Assembly (NCBI RefSeq): GCF_013314895.1
Contig: NZ_JABTYE010000006.1
Coordinates: 186,001 to 250,000, forward strand
From: Cupriavidus gilardii
GTDB lineage: Bacteria > Pseudomonadota > Gammaproteobacteria > Burkholderiales > Burkholderiaceae
DNA length: 64,000 nucleotides
Direction: 5' to 3'
Shown in pieces: positions 1 to 30,546 of this stretch. Under the pieces are notes generated by a model. The model worked only from the letters and a program-made list of their open reading frames with translations, made no database searches and was not told where the DNA came from. Within the stretch, counting starts at the first letter, position 1, and each line of letters starts with the position of its first letter. Made by a program: the position numbers and the translations under genes.

Positions 1-478
1 AGAACTCGCGCATCAGCTTCATGCCGTTGCCCTGCACCATCCACGCGTTCTGCTGGCGCGCGGTCAGGCCGAACGGAATCGTGGTGTCGAAGCACAGCGT
101 CGGGTTCTTGCCGAAGTAGTAGTAGCCGGCGGTGTGGCCGATCTGCACGGTGTTGTTCTGCACAGCGTCGAGCACCTGCAGACCCGGCACGATTTCGCCG
201 GCGGCGAACACCTTGATGTTGAACTTGCCGTCGGTCAGTTCCTTGACCCGGTTGGACAGCGTCTCGGCGCCGCCGTAGATGGTGTCGAGCGACTTCGGAA
301 AGCTCGACGCCAGGCGCCATTCGACGGCCGGATTGCTGCCGACCACGGCAGGCGCGGCGGGCGTTCCGGGCGCGCTGGCCGGCGCCGGGGCGGCGGCCTG
401 CTCTTGCTTGCCGCAGGCGGCCAGGGCACCGGTGGCGGCCACGGCCGACGCTTTCAACAGAAAGGAACGACGTTCCAT
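1..478 (-). CDS. TRAP transporter substrate-binding protein (DctP family, TakP-like), partial
   Basis: The C-terminal part lies beyond the window; about 159 residues are visible. The start ATG at 478 opens a signal that combines a twin-arginine motif (ERRSFLLK, residues 2-9) with a lipobox-like LAAC (19-22), so the product is probably exported folded and lipid-anchored or periplasmic. After an Ala/Pro linker the mature part begins WRLASSFPKSLDTIYGGAE and continues with FAAGEIVPGLQ, TAGYYYFGKNP and FGLTARQQNAWM. This pattern is typical of TRAP binding proteins for 2-oxo acids and related monocarboxylates (TakP type). In the family the protein delivers its ligand to a DctQ/DctM membrane pair, whose genes would lie left of position 1. 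The ligand cannot be read from the sequence. Confidence 0.9.
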   Translation of the reverse strand, partial: MERRSFLLKASAVAATGALAACGKQEQAAAPAPASAPGTPAAPAVVGSNPAVEWRLASSFPKSLDTIYGGAETLSNRVKELTDGKFNIKVFAAGEIVPGLQVLDAVQNNTVQIGHTAGYYYFGKNPTLCFDTTIPFGLTARQQNAWMVQGNGMKLMREF

Positions 479-992
479 CGACTACTCTCCTCGTTTTCGA
501 ATTTTGATCCGGCCGAAGGCAGAGCGTGCGTCGACGCCAGCGCTGGCCGGGAAGGCGCGGCAGGCCGTGGTACGGCAGCGCGCAACAACGGGCCTGTTAC
601 CGGCGCACCCGCCGACGTGGCAGTTCGCGCCGATAACAGGCCCGGATTCACCCCTTTGATCGCCCGCTCATACCCGTTCCAGCAGGCTGATCGATTATAG
701 CGGTGCCCAATTCGGCACGGGGCCGCGCCAGGCTCCGGGTTTTCGCTAGGAAAGTGCGGTATGACGCGCCTTGGCGGGGCCATCGTCGTCGACCGCCATC
801 GACCGTTGGTGGCGCAGGCATCCGTCGCCGAACGCACGCTGCCGCCACCTTGCCGTCACCTGCAGTGCACAGGCGATGGATTTTGTAACCGCTCTTGCTG
901 TCCAATCAGCCCGACTGATAAAACCGTCGGTCCGGCACGGCCGAGCCCAGGGGGCTCGCCGTTGCGCACCGTTGCCGTCCTGTTGTCACCGC
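479..992. other. Divergent intergenic region with a long imperfect inverted repeat
   Basis: This 514-bp gap separates the TRAP binding-protein gene (minus) from the porin gene (plus) and should hold both promoters. No convincing gene is seen. Its main structure is a 17-bp inverted repeat: arm 590-606 (GGGCCTGTTACCGGCGC) and arm 627-643 (GCGCCGATAACAGGCCC), with 16 of 17 positions complementary and a 20-nt loop. It sits 112 bp upstream of the TRAP start codon. Confidence 0.6.
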
Positions 993-2729
993 ATGTCGTT
1001 GTCCGCGTCGTCTTCCTCTCGCCGTCGTTTGCCGAACCGGTCCGCCCGTTCGTCCGTACTGCCGCGTCCGCGCTGGCTGTATCTGGCCGCACTGGGGGCA
1101 TGGGGCATCGCCGCCTGCGCGCAGACGCCGGCGGCGCCGGAGCCGATCGCGCCGCCGGTGCTGGCGCCGGCCGCCGAGGTGCCCGCGGTGGTGCAGCTGT
1201 CGACCTGGCCCGCCAATGCACCGTCGAACCGGCCGGCGCCCGCTGTCCCGCCGGCCGACGCCGCGGATCCGCTCGCCGGCCTGCTGCAGCGGGAAGCGCA
1301 AGCCGCCCCGACCACTGCACCGACCACTGCACCGACCACCGCATCGGACGCCGCTGCCACCGAAACGCTGAACCTGCCCCCCGCCGATACCCCGGAACAG
1401 ACTGCGCTGGCCGAACTCGACCCGGGCCTGGTCGGCCCGCCGGAGCCGCTGCCGCCGGCACCGCCGCCGGTGGTGCTGTTCCCGAACCGGCTGGGCGAAT
1501 TCATGCCCGAGTTCGTGCCCGACACGCGGGCCTTGGCGGGCGGCGATGCGGCGACGCCCGGCGATGCCCCGCCGGTGTTCGCCTCCAACCTGCCGAGCAC
1601 CGAGCCGGCCGAGGAGAGCGTCTGGAGCCTGTCCTACAGCGGGCGCGCCGCCTACGAGGACAACTCCCATGCGATGCGCGCCTGCCCGGGCGGCAGCCTG
1701 TCGACCGGCATCGGCCTGGGCGTGGCCTGCCAGAGCAGCGGCGAGGTCAAGCTGCGCGAGCAGCTGTATACGCTCGACGGCGGCGGCGCGATCGAGGTGG
1801 TCGCCCAGGCGCGCGGCACCAACACCACCACCATCGACGGGCGCCCTGCCCCGGTCGACCCGTACCAGCTGATCCCGCAGTTCTATACCGCGGTCAAGGG
1901 CATCGCCGCGCTCGACGGCGCGACCATGTGGGCCGGGCGGCGCGATACGTCGCCGTTCCTGATGTCGTCGGGCCTGCTGCCGCCGACCTCCAGCGCGCTG
2001 CGTTTCGGCGTCGACGACGCCAAGCTCGCCGGCGTCGGCCTGAGCTACCAGTACACCGCGCGCAACGACACCAATGGGCAGCATCTGCCCAGCTATCACT
2101 CGGTGCGCACCGCGCCGATCGGCGTCAACGACAAGGGCACGCTGCAGTTGGGCTTTACGCGTGTCGAGGCGGACGCGCTGGCCGATGCCGCCGGCAACGC
2201 CTGGTGGGCGTCGGCGATGCACGAGCAGAAGGGCGTGCTGGCCGGCACCAACCGCTTCGGCCTGCAATACGGCACCGGCAGCCGCACCGCGATGACCGGC
2301 TACTCCGGCATGGGCGACACGCTGTCGCGCGTGCGGGTGGCCGAATCGATGGAATGGAAGGGCCGCGCGGGCCTGATCGGCTCAGTCGAATCGAGCCTGC
2401 AATACGATCGCTCGGCGCTGGGCACGCTGCAATGGATGACCACGCGGGTACGCCCGGCTTACGCGCCGACCGAGCGCTTTCGGCTGAGTTTCGAGGTCGC
2501 GCACGACCAGATCTCGTCGGGCTTCGGCGTCAGCGGGCAGCGTACCGCCTTGACGGTGGCGCCGACGCTGACGTTCGGCAAGGCCGCCGGCAACGCCAAT
2601 CTGCGCGCCTTCTATACCTACAGCCGCGCCAGCGACGTCGACGGCATCAGCTTCGCGCCGCCGGCCGATGCGTGGGCGTCGCAGGCCACGGGTTCGATCT
2701 TCGGGATCCAGCTCAATCGGCGCTGGTAG
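993..2729 (+). CDS. Carbohydrate porin, LamB (maltoporin) family
   Basis: Predicted outer-membrane sugar porin of 578 residues. The ATG at 993 is chosen because it precedes a basic N-terminus and the hydrophobic segment WLYLAALGAWGIAACA (about 27-42), a signal sequence. A Pro/Ala-rich low-complexity stretch follows (about 43-190), containing a triplicated TTAP unit. The C-terminal 380 residues carry LamB-like strand blocks: a cysteine pair in AMRACPGG...GVACQSSGEVKLREQLY, TMWAGRR, GTLQLGFTRV, VLAGTNRFGLQYGTGS, TTRVRPAYAPTERFRLSFEVAHDQ and LRAFYTYSRASD, ending in an aromatic residue (RRW). The extra N-terminal region makes it longer than typical maltoporins (about 420-450 residues). The last 17 bp overlap the convergent aquaporin gene. 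The sugar is unknown, since no sugar-transport or catabolic genes are adjacent. Confidence 0.82.
   Translation: MSLSASSSSRRRLPNRSARSSVLPRPRWLYLAALGAWGIAACAQTPAAPEPIAPPVLAPAAEVPAVVQLSTWPANAPSNRPAPAVPPADAADPLAGLLQREAQAAPTTAPTTAPTTASDAAATETLNLPPADTPEQTALAELDPGLVGPPEPLPPAPPPVVLFPNRLGEFMPEFVPDTRALAGGDAATPGDAPPVFASNLPSTEPAEESVWSLSYSGRAAYEDNSHAMRACPGGSLSTGIGLGVACQSSGEVKLREQLYTLDGGGAIEVVAQARGTNTTTIDGRPAPVDPYQLIPQFYTAVKGIAALDGATMWAGRRDTSPFLMSSGLLPPTSSALRFGVDDAKLAGVGLSYQYTARNDTNGQHLPSYHSVRTAPIGVNDKGTLQLGFTRVEADALADAAGNAWWASAMHEQKGVLAGTNRFGLQYGTGSRTAMTGYSGMGDTLSRVRVAESMEWKGRAGLIGSVESSLQYDRSALGTLQWMTTRVRPAYAPTERFRLSFEVAHDQISSGFGVSGQRTALTVAPTLTFGKAAGNANLRAFYTYSRASDVDGISFAPPADAWASQATGSIFGIQLNRRW
1309..1344 (+). 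repeat. Tandem 12-bp repeat (3 units) in the porin gene
   Basis: Three consecutive units of CGACCACTGCAC (the last with two changes) encode TTAPTTAPTTA in the Pro/Ala linker of the porin. Confidence 0.9.
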
Positions 2730-3591
2730 GGGCAGCGCTGTTGGTGCGGCCGCTGGTAGTCCCGCCTTCGGCGCTTCCTGCAGCGAGGCCGATACTGGTC
2801 GGCGCCGCGCTCTCGCCCGGTGCCTGCCGCAGCAGCCAATGGAACAGCAGCGTCGCCGTCAGCGCACCGGCGCATTGCGCCAGCATGAAGCCCGGCACAT
2901 CGATCGCGCGGATGCCGGTGAACGTCGCCGTCAGCGCGCACGCCAGAGTCAGCGCCGGATTGGCGAACGAGGTCGAGGCGGTGAACCAGTAGCCCGCGCC
3001 GATATAGCCGGCCACCGCGAACGGCAGCAGCGCGGGCCGGGCGCGCGCGGTGCCCATCGCCACGCCGATCAGGCCGAAGGTCGCCAGGAATTCGCTCCAC
3101 CACAGTGGCGCGCCGGTGCGCACCTGAGCCGACCATGCCAGCAGCGGCTCGCCGAACATCAGATGGACCGCGATCACGCCGGCGACTGCGCCCAGCGCCT
3201 GCGCGGCGACATAGCGCAGCGCCTCGCGTGCCGGCAGCATGCCGCGCAGCCAGGCCGACAGCGTGACCGCCGGATTCAGATGGCCTCCGGAAATGCCGCC
3301 GAAGGTCAGCAGCAGCGCGGCGAGGCCCGCGCCGCTCGCGAGAGAGTTGGCGAGCAGGGCGAGCGCGACATTGCCGGCCGCAAGCCGCTCGGCACGCAGC
3401 CCCGAGCCGATCACCACTGCGATCAGCAGCGCCGTGCCCAGGGCCTCGGCGACCAGCCGGCGCGCCAGCGGGACGGGCGCTTCAGGACCGGCGGCGGCGT
3501 GAGTTCCCACGTGAATTTCGGCGTGATCTTCGGCGCGAATTTCGGCGCGAATTTCGGCGCGAATTTTGGCGTGAGGACGGCGGATGGACAT
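2713..3591 (-). CDS. MIP/aquaporin family channel
   Basis: Integral membrane channel for water or small neutral solutes. Both half-helix signatures are visible: SGGHLNPAVTL in the first half and STSFANPALTLACALT in the second. About six hydrophobic segments start at LVAEALGTALLIAVVIGSG. The first NPA box is normal, but the second is NPAL, so the arginine that follows the second NPA in strict water channels is absent; this suggests a wider or differently selective pore. The ATG at 3591 gives 292 residues. The preceding N-terminal segment is coded by a 12-bp tandem repeat (IRAE units), so the true start may lie inside or after it; a GTG at 3510 is an alternative, and an upstream ATG at 3711 is less likely. 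The 3' end overlaps the porin gene tail to tail. Confidence 0.85.
   Translation of the reverse strand: MSIRRPHAKIRAEIRAEIRAEDHAEIHVGTHAAAGPEAPVPLARRLVAEALGTALLIAVVIGSGLRAERLAAGNVALALLANSLASGAGLAALLLTFGGISGGHLNPAVTLSAWLRGMLPAREALRYVAAQALGAVAGVIAVHLMFGEPLLAWSAQVRTGAPLWWSEFLATFGLIGVAMGTARARPALLPFAVAGYIGAGYWFTASTSFANPALTLACALTATFTGIRAIDVPGFMLAQCAGALTATLLFHWLLRQAPGESAAPTSIGLAAGSAEGGTTSGRTNSAAPTSAD
3511..3570 (-). repeat. Tandem 12-bp repeat (5 units) at the aquaporin 5' end
   Basis: Five 12-bp units related to GCGAATTTCGGC on the plus strand, three of them nearly identical. Depending on the start used, they encode AEIR-type repeats or form part of the leader. Confidence 0.9.
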
Positions 3592-28079: not shown

Positions 28080-29027
28080 CTAGTTGCCCGCCACAGCCGC
28101 GCTCGCGGCGCCGGGGGCCCCACCCGCCCCATCGGCGCTTTTCTTCTTCCCTTCTTCCAGCAGGAAGTCGATGAAGGCCCGCGCCTTGGTCGGCAGGAAC
28201 TTGCGGCTCGGATAGACCACGCTGATGTCGCGGCGCGGCAGCTGGTATTGCGGCAGGATGTGCTCCAGCAGGCCGGCCTCGATACTGGGCCGCGCCAGGT
28301 ACGACGACAACATCGCGATGCCGAGATTGGCCAGCGCCGCCTGGTGCGCCAGTTCGGCGTTGCTGCAGAGCAGACCGGGCCGGATCGGCACGGTCACCTC
28401 CCCTTCCGGACCGGACAGCGTCCAGGCATGCTCGGCATTGGTCAGCCGCATGGCGATGCAGCGGTGCTGCGTCAGCTCATGGGCATGGCGCAGCGGCGCG
28501 TGGGCGCGCAGATAGCCGGGCGAGGCACACAGGATGATCTCGGCGGACAACAGAGGCCGCGCCACCAGATGCGAGCCCAGCCCCAGGTCGGACAGCACGA
28601 TGCCGACGTCCCGGCCCTCCTCGACGATATCGATGCTGCGGTCCGACAGCAGCACATCGAACACCACGTCGGGATACATCTGCTGGAAGCGCGCCAGCAT
28701 GTCGGGCAACAGATGCAGCCCGAACATCACCGGCGTAACGATCCGCAGCGTGCCCGATAGCGACTGGCTGCGGGTCGTCACCACCGACTCGGCTTCCTCG
28801 ACGTCCTCGAGGATCTGCTGGCAGCGCTGCAGATAGGTTTCGCCCGCATCGGTCAGCGACAGGCTGCGGGTGGTCCGGTTCAGCAGCCGCGTACCCAGAT
28901 GGCTCTCCAGGTCCGCGACATAGCGGGTCACCACCGCGTTCGACATTTCCAATTGCTGCGCCGCACGGGCGAAGCTGCCCAGCTCGACGACCTTGGCGAA
29001 CACGCGCATCGATTGCAGCCGATCCAT
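28080..29027 (-). CDS. LysR-type transcriptional regulator
   Basis: DNA-binding regulator of 315 residues. The N-terminal winged helix (DRLQSMRVFAKVVELGSFARAAQQLEMSNAVVTRYVADLESHLGTRLLNRTTR) is typical. An effector-binding domain spans about 95-300. The ATG at 29027 gives MDRLQSMRVF; the extra residues upstream are not typical. The target is not given by the sequence, but LysR genes usually control a divergent neighbour, here the repeat-only secreted protein 192 bp away. Confidence 0.92.
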   Translation of the reverse strand: MDRLQSMRVFAKVVELGSFARAAQQLEMSNAVVTRYVADLESHLGTRLLNRTTRSLSLTDAGETYLQRCQQILEDVEEAESVVTTRSQSLSGTLRIVTPVMFGLHLLPDMLARFQQMYPDVVFDVLLSDRSIDIVEEGRDVGIVLSDLGLGSHLVARPLLSAEIILCASPGYLRAHAPLRHAHELTQHRCIAMRLTNAEHAWTLSGPEGEVTVPIRPGLLCSNAELAHQAALANLGIAMLSSYLARPSIEAGLLEHILPQYQLPRRDISVVYPSRKFLPTKARAFIDFLLEEGKKKSADGAGGAPGAASAAVAGN

Positions 29028-29219
29028 TGCACAGTCTCCCTTTTTTCTTCCCCATTTTTCCACAGCTTGGGGTTTTTGTTGTTCTTTATAGAACTAATCA
29101 TTGTTTGCGGTAACGTTTATTCATATAAGGGAAATGCCTAATATGCAGTCATCGGATGCCGCATTGCAGCGAAACCAAGCCGCCGCGGACGTCCTCCCGA
29201 CCAGAAGAAAGGACACATC

Positions 29220-29450
29220 ATGACGATCTCCCGCTTTGCCCTGACCGCCGCCGCCACCGCTCTCGTGGCCACCCTGACCGCCGCGCCCGCCTTCGCCAAG
29301 GCCGGCAAGTTCGACCCGTACACCGACGGCGCCAGGACCGGCCAGTTCGACGTGTTCAGCGAAGGCGCACGCCAGGGCCAGTTCGACGTGTTCACCGAAG
29401 GTGCCCGCCAGGGCAAGTTCGACGTCTTCACCGAAGGCGCCGCCCGCTAA
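29220..29450 (+). CDS. Secreted protein made of four 12-residue repeats
   Basis: A 76-residue protein with a good ribosome-binding site (AAGGA) before the ATG. A signal peptide (MTISRF...APAFA, 1-26) is predicted to be cleaved after AFA. The mature part is a two-residue start (KA) plus exactly four 12-residue units at 29-40, 41-52, 53-64 and 65-76: GKFDPYTDGART, GQFDVFSEGARQ, GQFDVFTEGARQ and GKFDVFTEGAAR. Each unit has a Phe-Asp core, an acidic pair and a Gly-Ala turn. I do not recognise a function. It is divergent from the LysR gene and ends with a hairpin terminator. Confidence 0.85.
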   Translation: MTISRFALTAAATALVATLTAAPAFAKAGKFDPYTDGARTGQFDVFSEGARQGQFDVFTEGARQGKFDVFTEGAAR

Positions 29451-29485
29451 GTCTGCCTCCCCCAGGACCGCTTCCCAGCGGCCCC

Positions 29486-29511
29486 GATGCCCGTGCCTCG
29501 GCACGGGCATC
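29486..29511 (+). terminator. Terminator-like hairpin after the repeat protein
   Basis: Perfect 12-bp arms GATGCCCGTGCC (29486-29497) and GGCACGGGCATC (29500-29511) with a 2-nt gap, followed by GTCGTTTA. It lies 35 bp beyond the stop codon. Confidence 0.75.
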
Positions 29512-29574
29512 GTCGTTTACGGCGGCCCGGCGCTGTCGCGCGCGGAGGTGGAACAACCGGACGTTGGCCGCCGC

Positions 29575-29638: not shown

Positions 29639-30121
29639 TCAATCGTCCCAATCACGATGGCCGCGGCGGTGGTGGCGGTGCTTGTTCTTGTACTTGCTCT
29701 TGTGATAGCCGCGATCGCGGTAGTAGCGGTCACGGTCGTTGGCGTACGAGTTGCTGCGCGACACGTTGCCGCCCAGCGCCGCGCCAGCGCCGCCGCCCAG
29801 GGCCGCGCCGATCAGGCCGCCGCCACGGCCGCCCATCGCGTTGCCCGCCGCGGTACCCGCACCGCCGCCGAGCGCGCCGCCCAGGATGGCGCCGGTACGC
29901 TCGCGGCGATTCGAGCTGATCGCGCCGCCGGCGCCACCGCCCACCGCGCCGCCGATCACGGCGCCGGTGGAACCACCCAGTGCGCCTCCGACGGCTGCAC
30001 CGGCGACGCCGCCGAGGGCGCCACCCAGTGCGTTATTCATGTCGCTCGCGAATGCAGGCAGCGTCGTCGATGCCGCCAGGGCGAGGGCCACGGTCATATT
30101 GCGAACGAGTCGGCGAGACAT
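29639..30121 (-). CDS. Glycine-zipper exported protein with a basic His/Arg tail
   Basis: Protein of 160 residues. The signal peptide (MSRRLVRNMTVALALAASTTLPAFA) is followed by three blocks of glycine-zipper repeats (GGALGGVAGAAVGGALGG, GAVIGGAVGGGAGGA, GAILGGALGGGAG) that are expected to pack as membrane-inserting helices. The last 35 residues are rich in Tyr, Arg, His and Asp (DRDRYYRDRGYHKSKYKNK, then a HRHHRRGH motif) and highly charged. Proteins of this type are often envelope lipoprotein-like factors, but the exact role is unknown. It carries its own terminator. Confidence 0.8.
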   Translation of the reverse strand: MSRRLVRNMTVALALAASTTLPAFASDMNNALGGALGGVAGAAVGGALGGSTGAVIGGAVGGGAGGAISSNRRERTGAILGGALGGGAGTAAGNAMGGRGGGLIGAALGGGAGAALGGNVSRSNSYANDRDRYYRDRGYHKSKYKNKHRHHRRGHRDWDD

Positions 30122-30342: not shown

Positions 30343-30546
30343 TCAGCAGCACTTGCCCTGCCCGCCGCCGTAACGCGCCTCCTGGCGCTCGCGGAAGAAC
30401 TCCTCGTAGCTCATCGGCTCGCGGTCCGGATGCGTGCTTTCCATATGGGCCACATAGGTCTGGTAGTCGGGCAGCCCGACCATCAGCCGCAGCGACTGGC
30501 CCAGGTAGCGGCCCATTTGGCCCATCTTGTTCAGCGGATCCAGCAT
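30343..30546 (-). CDS. YbdD/YjiX family small protein
   Basis: A 67-residue protein with the family pattern [46 protein letters not shown]. It ends in GKCC. YbdD-like proteins are regularly encoded directly after cstA and are needed for pyruvate or peptide uptake by CstA-type carriers. Here it lies 53 bp downstream of cstA, supporting that role. Confidence 0.92.

Follow-up and report, generated by a model that had tools for sequence, protein, structure and literature searches.

A LysR-paired repeat protein of Cupriavidus gilardii, very probably a member of the CopQ-like family

The closest described relatives of the protein considered here are the CopQ-like proteins. CzcJ, MmrQ and CopQ carry signal sequences and the motif RDXXTDG, repeated three to four times with spacers of defined length, and MmmQ, MmtQ and MmsQ, which have 'similar domains', are counted with them (Janssen et al., 2010, PMC2864759). 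CopQ-like genes are reported to be metal-induced and restricted to Cupriavidus and Ralstonia (PMC2864759), with 21 copQ homologues in strain CH34 (PMC7563307); CzcJ is listed as a periplasmic protein (PMC9045368), and PrsQ1 and PrsQ2 are described as CopQ-like and predicted to be periplasmic (PMC7380067). In a silver-resistant mutant, prsQ2 is reportedly up 507-fold; prsQ1/prsQ2 deletion derivatives are stated, with reference to a 2019 paper, to lose silver resistance, and prsQ1, in the accessible part of that account, shows neither differential expression by RNA-seq nor AgrR binding (PMC7380067). CopQ and CzcJ are given as undetected in the accessible text of a 2024 CH34 proteome, as are CopK, CopM, CopG and CopJ (PMC11647595). 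The family is reportedly needed for enhanced silver resistance and has no known molecular activity in the parts of the literature examined. SilE/PcoE, periplasmic silver and copper sponges, offer a second comparison: SilE is reported to be disordered and to depend on His and Met (PMC5008109).

The window, the whole 64,000-nucleotide stretch of the Cupriavidus gilardii genome that was analysed, contains on its plus strand a 76-residue ORF (29220-29450) for a CopQ-like repeat protein. The ORF opens with a putative Sec-type signal peptide, MTISRFALTAAATALVATLTAAPAFA (29220-29297), whose cleavage was placed by eye between AFA and KA; AAPAFAK or a close variant recurs in the aligned orthologues, and on these two grounds the protein is apparently exported. 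With cleavage at this point, the predicted mature chain is 50 residues long, KA followed by four 12-residue units on the same strand: GKFDPYTDGART (29304-29339), GQFDVFSEGARQ (29340-29375), GQFDVFTEGARQ (29376-29411) and GKFDVFTEGAAR (29412-29447). A sequence-only reading of the locus had proposed this makeup, two residues plus exactly four units with a strict Phe-Asp core and a Gly-Ala turn, and the numbers bear it out: the lag-12 identity of the 48 repeat residues is 0.72, a value reached by none of 100,000 shuffles (the best gave 0.33), and both Phe-Asp and Gly-Ala are present in all four units. At the DNA level, units 2-4 differ from one another at 3-8 of 36 nt. The ribosome site claimed by the same reading is also found, as a Shine-Dalgarno-like AAAGGA (29208-29213, plus strand) placed by sequence 6 nt upstream of the ATG.

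That reading could not assign the protein. We regard its membership in the published CopQ-like family as nearly certain: the window repeats match CzcJ (E 1.3e-11), MmrQ (3.2e-11) and CopQ (1.7e-4) on plasmid pMOL30, and two near-identical genes of the CH34 chromid, probably mmsQ/mmsQ1, at 6.1e-11. The CH34 sequences searched were the chromid and pMOL30; CzcJ was named by fit to the start positions in PMC9045368, MmrQ and CopQ from their neighbours. Like the named proteins (CopQ, MmrQ, CzcJ, MmmQ, MmtQ, MmsQ, PrsQ1 and PrsQ2), the window member has a signal-like N-terminus and several D-x-[FY]-[ST]-[DE]-G units with defined spacers, is significantly similar in sequence, and falls within the same two genera. 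By contrast, its units are contiguous with a strict period of 12, they carry FD rather than RD, and its neighbour regulator is a LysR protein instead of one of CzcR/CopR/AgrR type. The strict RDXXTDG motif occurs in none of the four window units and the relaxed D-x-[FY]-[ST]-[DE]-G in all four. The strict form does not bound the family, because MmmQ, MmtQ and MmsQ are counted as similar and units of the KFDPYTDG type are found in members on the CH34 chromid. The window member is recognised by no model of Pfam or NCBIfam (best Pfam score 14.4 bits against a cut-off of 27.9, best NCBIfam score 11.1 against 192). A known domain was also sought among PHROGs, with a best match (E 0.0026, 22 residues, function unknown) as unconvincing as those in Pfam and NCBIfam; resemblances to MORN-like and calcium-loop sequences are unsupported by Pfam, and the search for phage homologues returned nothing convincing (best E 2).

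The window gene has many relatives in its own genome. A search of 5.54 Mb in 60 contigs gave 21 matches, 19 of them at E < 0.005, which fall into 13 loci including that of the window; each of the other 12 encodes a hydrophobic N-terminal stretch and repeats, with just two clear units in L016 and L020. L019 is an apparent CopQ orthologue and adjoins a CzcE-family gene (Pfam E 1.1e-25). L015, in an MmmQ-like place, and L019 have the repeat core in common with the window member, but L015 lies beside a heavy-metal response regulator and L019 beside the CzcE-family gene, and the repeats of L019 have a period of 13 residues and linkers that contain His and Met. L012 encodes the same protein as CzcJ, which C. 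metallidurans carries on plasmid pMOL30. Complete czc clusters are reported in some C. gilardii strains (PMC12029693), and the sequence at L012 suggests that a metal-resistance region of czc type was transferred recently. The DNA identical to pMOL30 extends there over 3,093 bp (14-3106 of the locus, C3:43013-46105 of the own genome).

Regulators lie beside several of these paralogues: L014 and L015 adjoin heavy-metal response regulators that score above the TIGR01387 cut-off, L010 and L011 adjoin TetR regulators, and L016 adjoins a second LysR. The remaining neighbours follow no single theme. L009 adjoins a putative neutral zinc metallopeptidase gene (171-1040 of that locus, Pfam E 1.1e-114), with similar DNA at L085, L092, L097 and L109. 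L017 adjoins an EmrB-like efflux gene that falls below the cut-off of that model; its MarR gene, one gene away, was left out of the regulator count. A substrate-binding protein, a kinase-like gene and a short-chain dehydrogenase are found beside others. For six of the 13 family loci of this genome, a domain of LysR, TetR or OmpR type is found no more than 1 kb away, against 1.03 expected from the 185 such domains in the genome (p = 2.7e-4) in a post hoc test designed after the neighbours were known, in which two of the regulator pairs, TetR and response regulator, are paralogous (58% and 55%). A further 76 LysR and 11 TetR candidates went unscored; were all of them real, the expectation would rise to 1.49 and p to 0.0019. 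The 58% identity of the L010 and L011 TetR regulators suggests that regulator and output were duplicated together. In the longer members L011, L018 and L010 the repeats are accompanied by another recurring element, similar to VAGLDRTGVSA, and by a box near the N-terminus that resembles PADKYGYEFR.

With 13 loci here and 21 reported in CH34, the family is confined to two genera as far as the searches reach. The family-level sample contains 150 genomes of 25 genera, and 27 genomes from two genera match: 14, counting the one analysed here, are of its own genus and 13 of a second genus, g24. We take g24 to be Ralstonia, since the repeat stretch of its member L034 equals that of the Ralstonia sp. 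A12 locus L087. A repeat-only profile matches three genomes in the order sample (of 399) and three in the phylum sample (of 398). In both cases they are the genome analysed here and two others from the same genus, with no Ralstonia among these matches. Among the best 80 of 90 relatives in a scan of named genomes, at least 71 are from Cupriavidus, at least five from Ralstonia and at least four from 'Burkholderiaceae bacterium 16', and all 23 matching records of a plasmid collection are Cupriavidus. Among the matches listed, the window locus has its closest named relatives in C. cauae MKL-01 and in C. gilardii CCUG 38401. In the collections searched, the two-genus restriction agrees with the published Cupriavidus/Ralstonia range.

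The sequence-only reading had the repeat gene divergent from a LysR regulator, an identification that Pfam confirms: the protein encoded at 28080-29027 on the minus strand has HTH_1 and LysR_substrate domains (E 1.3e-42 and 1.6e-20). Its conserved start is MDRLQ, the listed ORF extends to 29063 from an upstream GTG, and the best NCBIfam model, YafC, is matched at 220.9 bits, below the cut-off of 470. This LysR gene and a divergent repeat gene occur together in 23 loci besides the window, with the LysR proteins 83-97% identical; some of these loci are duplicates, because one genome was reached in two ways. Whether the neighbour is conserved and whether the repeat number varies had both been raised from the sequence, and the answer is yes to each: the pair is present in all 14 own-genus genomes sampled (ten by locus comparison, G002, G089 and G123 by further locus searches, and the own genome), and the aligned orthologues have three to five canonical units by the pattern used, some with degenerate units besides. 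Where the locus extends far enough and a match was detected, TopB, a glycine-zipper protein, YbdD and CstA flank the pair. The long ORF beyond LysR we take to be topoisomerase III (TopB), and that on the side of the repeat gene is presumably the CstA transporter. No metal-resistance genes were recognised among the examined neighbours, in the 25-33 kb part of the window. By these comparisons the window gene is a member of a LysR-paired syntenic orthologue group inside the CopQ-like family; a LysR-paired CopQ-like gene is not described in the literature searched, most subscription papers lying beyond reach. As a simple, LysR-paired member, the window gene would be suited to functional testing.

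Two of the flanking genes deserve a remark of their own. The glycine-zipper protein (29639-30121, minus strand), recognised by Pfam, begins like a signal peptide and ends in a tail rich in His and Arg (HRHHRRGHRDWDD), and its gene adjoins the repeat gene in many Cupriavidus loci. The YbdD-like protein (30343-30546, minus strand), of 67 residues, belongs to the Sel_put family of Pfam and ends in GGQGKCC; with 71.7 bits against the NCBIfam KCU-star selenoprotein model, below the cut-off of 85, it may be a cysteine form.

The region between LysR and the repeat gene is strikingly conserved in an alignment of 25 loci. Within it lies a probable LysR operator, a candidate drawn from sequence, TTTGTTGTTCTTTATAGAACTAATCATTGT (29075-29104, no strand assigned), which contains GTTC-TTTATA-GAAC at 29081-29094. 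A putative -10 element, TAATAT (29139-29144, plus strand), sits within a conserved AGGGAAATGCCTAATAT block, and a putative transcription start lies near 29151, so that the centre of GTTC-N6-GAAC would fall about 63 nt upstream of it. An operator centre about 63 nt before the start is the usual geometry of LysR-type sites. A consensus scan finds no sigma-70 site, which fits an activator-dependent promoter without showing one. The complete promoter pattern was found in 33 loci, the window and some places counted twice included. Two of these loci, L031 and L108, are repeat genes for which the 3.2 and 8.1 kb of sequence available contain no match to LysR; they are possible second copies controlled in trans. 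On the other side of the gene, the terminator claimed by the sequence-only reading survives in part: the fold of 29448-29530 has z = -3.8, and 3' of the stop codon the centroid structure shows a strong, G+C-rich hairpin with 12 pairs (29485-29512, plus strand) that may mark the transcript end, but the hairpin has no canonical T-run and is not listed by the scan.

The LysR protein itself reaches beyond Cupriavidus. It was searched in ten selected genomes of the family, six of the 13 g24 genomes with repeat matches and four of the 123 genomes without, and a match was found in eight: all six of g24 and two of the four others, the remaining two genomes having no match at the cut-off. In all eight the LysR gene adjoins topB, and the roughly 1.5 kb on the side away from topB contain no repeat gene. 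Upstream of LysR, the six g24 loci have the palindrome ATTTGTT-N11-AACAAAT, whose arms in two of these loci are one pair longer, with eight pairs; it is recognisably like TTTGTTGTTCTTTATAGAACTAATC of the window; the two matching genomes outside g24 have no such palindrome upstream of LysR. The simplest reading of these sequences is that the topB-LysR arrangement predates the association with the repeat gene and that the CopQ-like gene joined it in Cupriavidus, the alternative being loss elsewhere. An ancestor of Cupriavidus probably gained a repeat output next to a LysR gene that adjoins topB in other genera.

What the repeat protein does has to be judged against its chemistry. The 50-residue mature window chain contains no Cys, His or Met. 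Among 122 family-like ORFs of the loci collected, a species-redundant set selected with a motif pattern in which D and G are invariant, two have Cys, 44 have His, 26 have Met and 63 have none of the three after the presumed signal, removed by a crude cleavage rule. Their 582 units give the consensus G-K-F-D-P-Y-T-D-G-A-[R/K]-x, and 309 unit spacings are exactly 12. AlphaFold reaches a mean pLDDT of 49.0 and 51.8 from 13 and 29 sequences, which is no confident fold, and the PDB holds no sequence relative of the window protein at E up to 10. The chain is likely disordered, although low confidence with so few sequences is not proof. Classical copper or silver chelation by it is unlikely, because the mature chain is without Cys, His and Met and AlphaFold gives no confident fold.

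A disordered envelope-stress protein under LysR control is the best fit, a proposal to which we give about an even chance. LysR would sense some compound or stress and, through the intergenic operator that both genes share, switch on the repeat gene. Its product would be exported to the periplasm, largely disordered without a partner, where a multivalent set of positions, aromatic (F/Y), acidic (D/E) and basic (K/R), may bind envelope components or weakly bind cations, and it would protect the envelope during metal or related stress. The family members appear to act as one interchangeable output under many sensors (CzcR/CopR-type, TetR, LysR). That about half of the sampled members are without a classical metal ligand, that the neighbour regulators are unrelated and that one member was probably added beside a LysR gene shared with other genera all favour a generic output over a chelator specific for metals. 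Counting against the proposal are the non-detection of CopQ and CzcJ in the 2024 proteome, which also missed other Cop proteins (PMC11647595), the prsQ1 results (PMC7380067) and the absence of the strict RDXXTDG motif from the window units.

A periplasmic metal sponge, in which Asp/Glu and aromatic side chains bind and buffer free ions in the manner of SilE, is the rival that survives best, and we consider it possible but on the unlikely side. It would account for the reported metal induction of family genes (PMC2864759) and the reported need for PrsQ1/PrsQ2 in enhanced silver resistance (PMC7380067); the linkers of CopQ contain His and Met, and D-x-[FY]-[ST]-[DE]-G supplies two carboxylates per unit. 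The window protein resembles SilE/PcoE in being small, apparently exported, repetitive and perhaps disordered, but it has no His or Met in its mature chain, the residues on which SilE is reported to depend (PMC5008109), and Pfam and NCBIfam scans gave no related family. The absence of all three ligands from 63 of the 122 family-like ORFs argues against a sponge more widely, as does a putative MmmQ gene, perhaps the PrsQ2 counterpart, whose part behind the signal contains a single His but neither Cys nor Met; this gene was identified by eye from an adjoining IS30-type transposase and a CzcR-like/kinase pair. The metal-binding role once suggested for the window protein is weakened accordingly for this member.

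An improbable variant of the envelope-protection proposal is independent of metal: a disordered, multivalent chain would condense with or shield periplasmic proteins or the envelope surface, and, with its copies placed under many different sensors, the promoters rather than the proteins would determine specificity. In a bolder form, the Asp-flanked Tyr units of Tyr-rich members would reduce noble-metal ions and nucleate them into particles, and the Phe-rich window member would be a non-reducing shield. There is some support for silver reduction by Tyr and Asp residues. In the accessible text of one review, aspartic acid is among several silver-reducing residues, and tyrosine is unnamed in that role (PMC7711612).

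Envelope protection by a generic output may also be set against a regulatory accessory. Like small periplasmic modulators, the exported repeats would attach to an efflux pump or to the periplasmic part of a sensor kinase and adjust its activity. The response regulators beside L014 and L015, the CzcE-family gene beside the CopQ-like L019 and the EmrB-like efflux gene, below its cut-off, beside L017 are what such a role would lead one to expect, but the conserved neighbours of the window member include no two-component or efflux genes, the identified neighbours of L009, L013 and L016 likewise, and repeat number differs among orthologues; we hold this role to be decidedly improbable. Very improbable is a peptide precursor, cut by proteases after the unit-closing Arg/Lys so as to free several near-identical peptides of 11-12 residues. 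A basic residue does follow Gly-Ala in most of the 582 units (49% R, 37% K), and L009, together with the similar DNA at L085, L092, L097 and L109, provides a putative metallopeptidase; against it, no protease is among the named conserved neighbours of the window member (some of the names provisional), and spacings differ between paralogues.

Finally, that 29220-29450 is a chance open frame, of the kind that high-G+C DNA yields in many long false examples, is virtually ruled out, because dN is below dS in all ten whole-gene comparisons of the window repeat gene and synteny with LysR is conserved; the lag-12 repeat identity argues the same way. The sequence-only reading had judged such a frame unlikely, and an orphan gene is set aside along with it by the 12 further loci of the same genome. 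Against one of its two closest orthologues the window gene has dN 0.036 and dS 0.219, and its tandem repeats are, as far as sequence comparison shows, under purifying selection.
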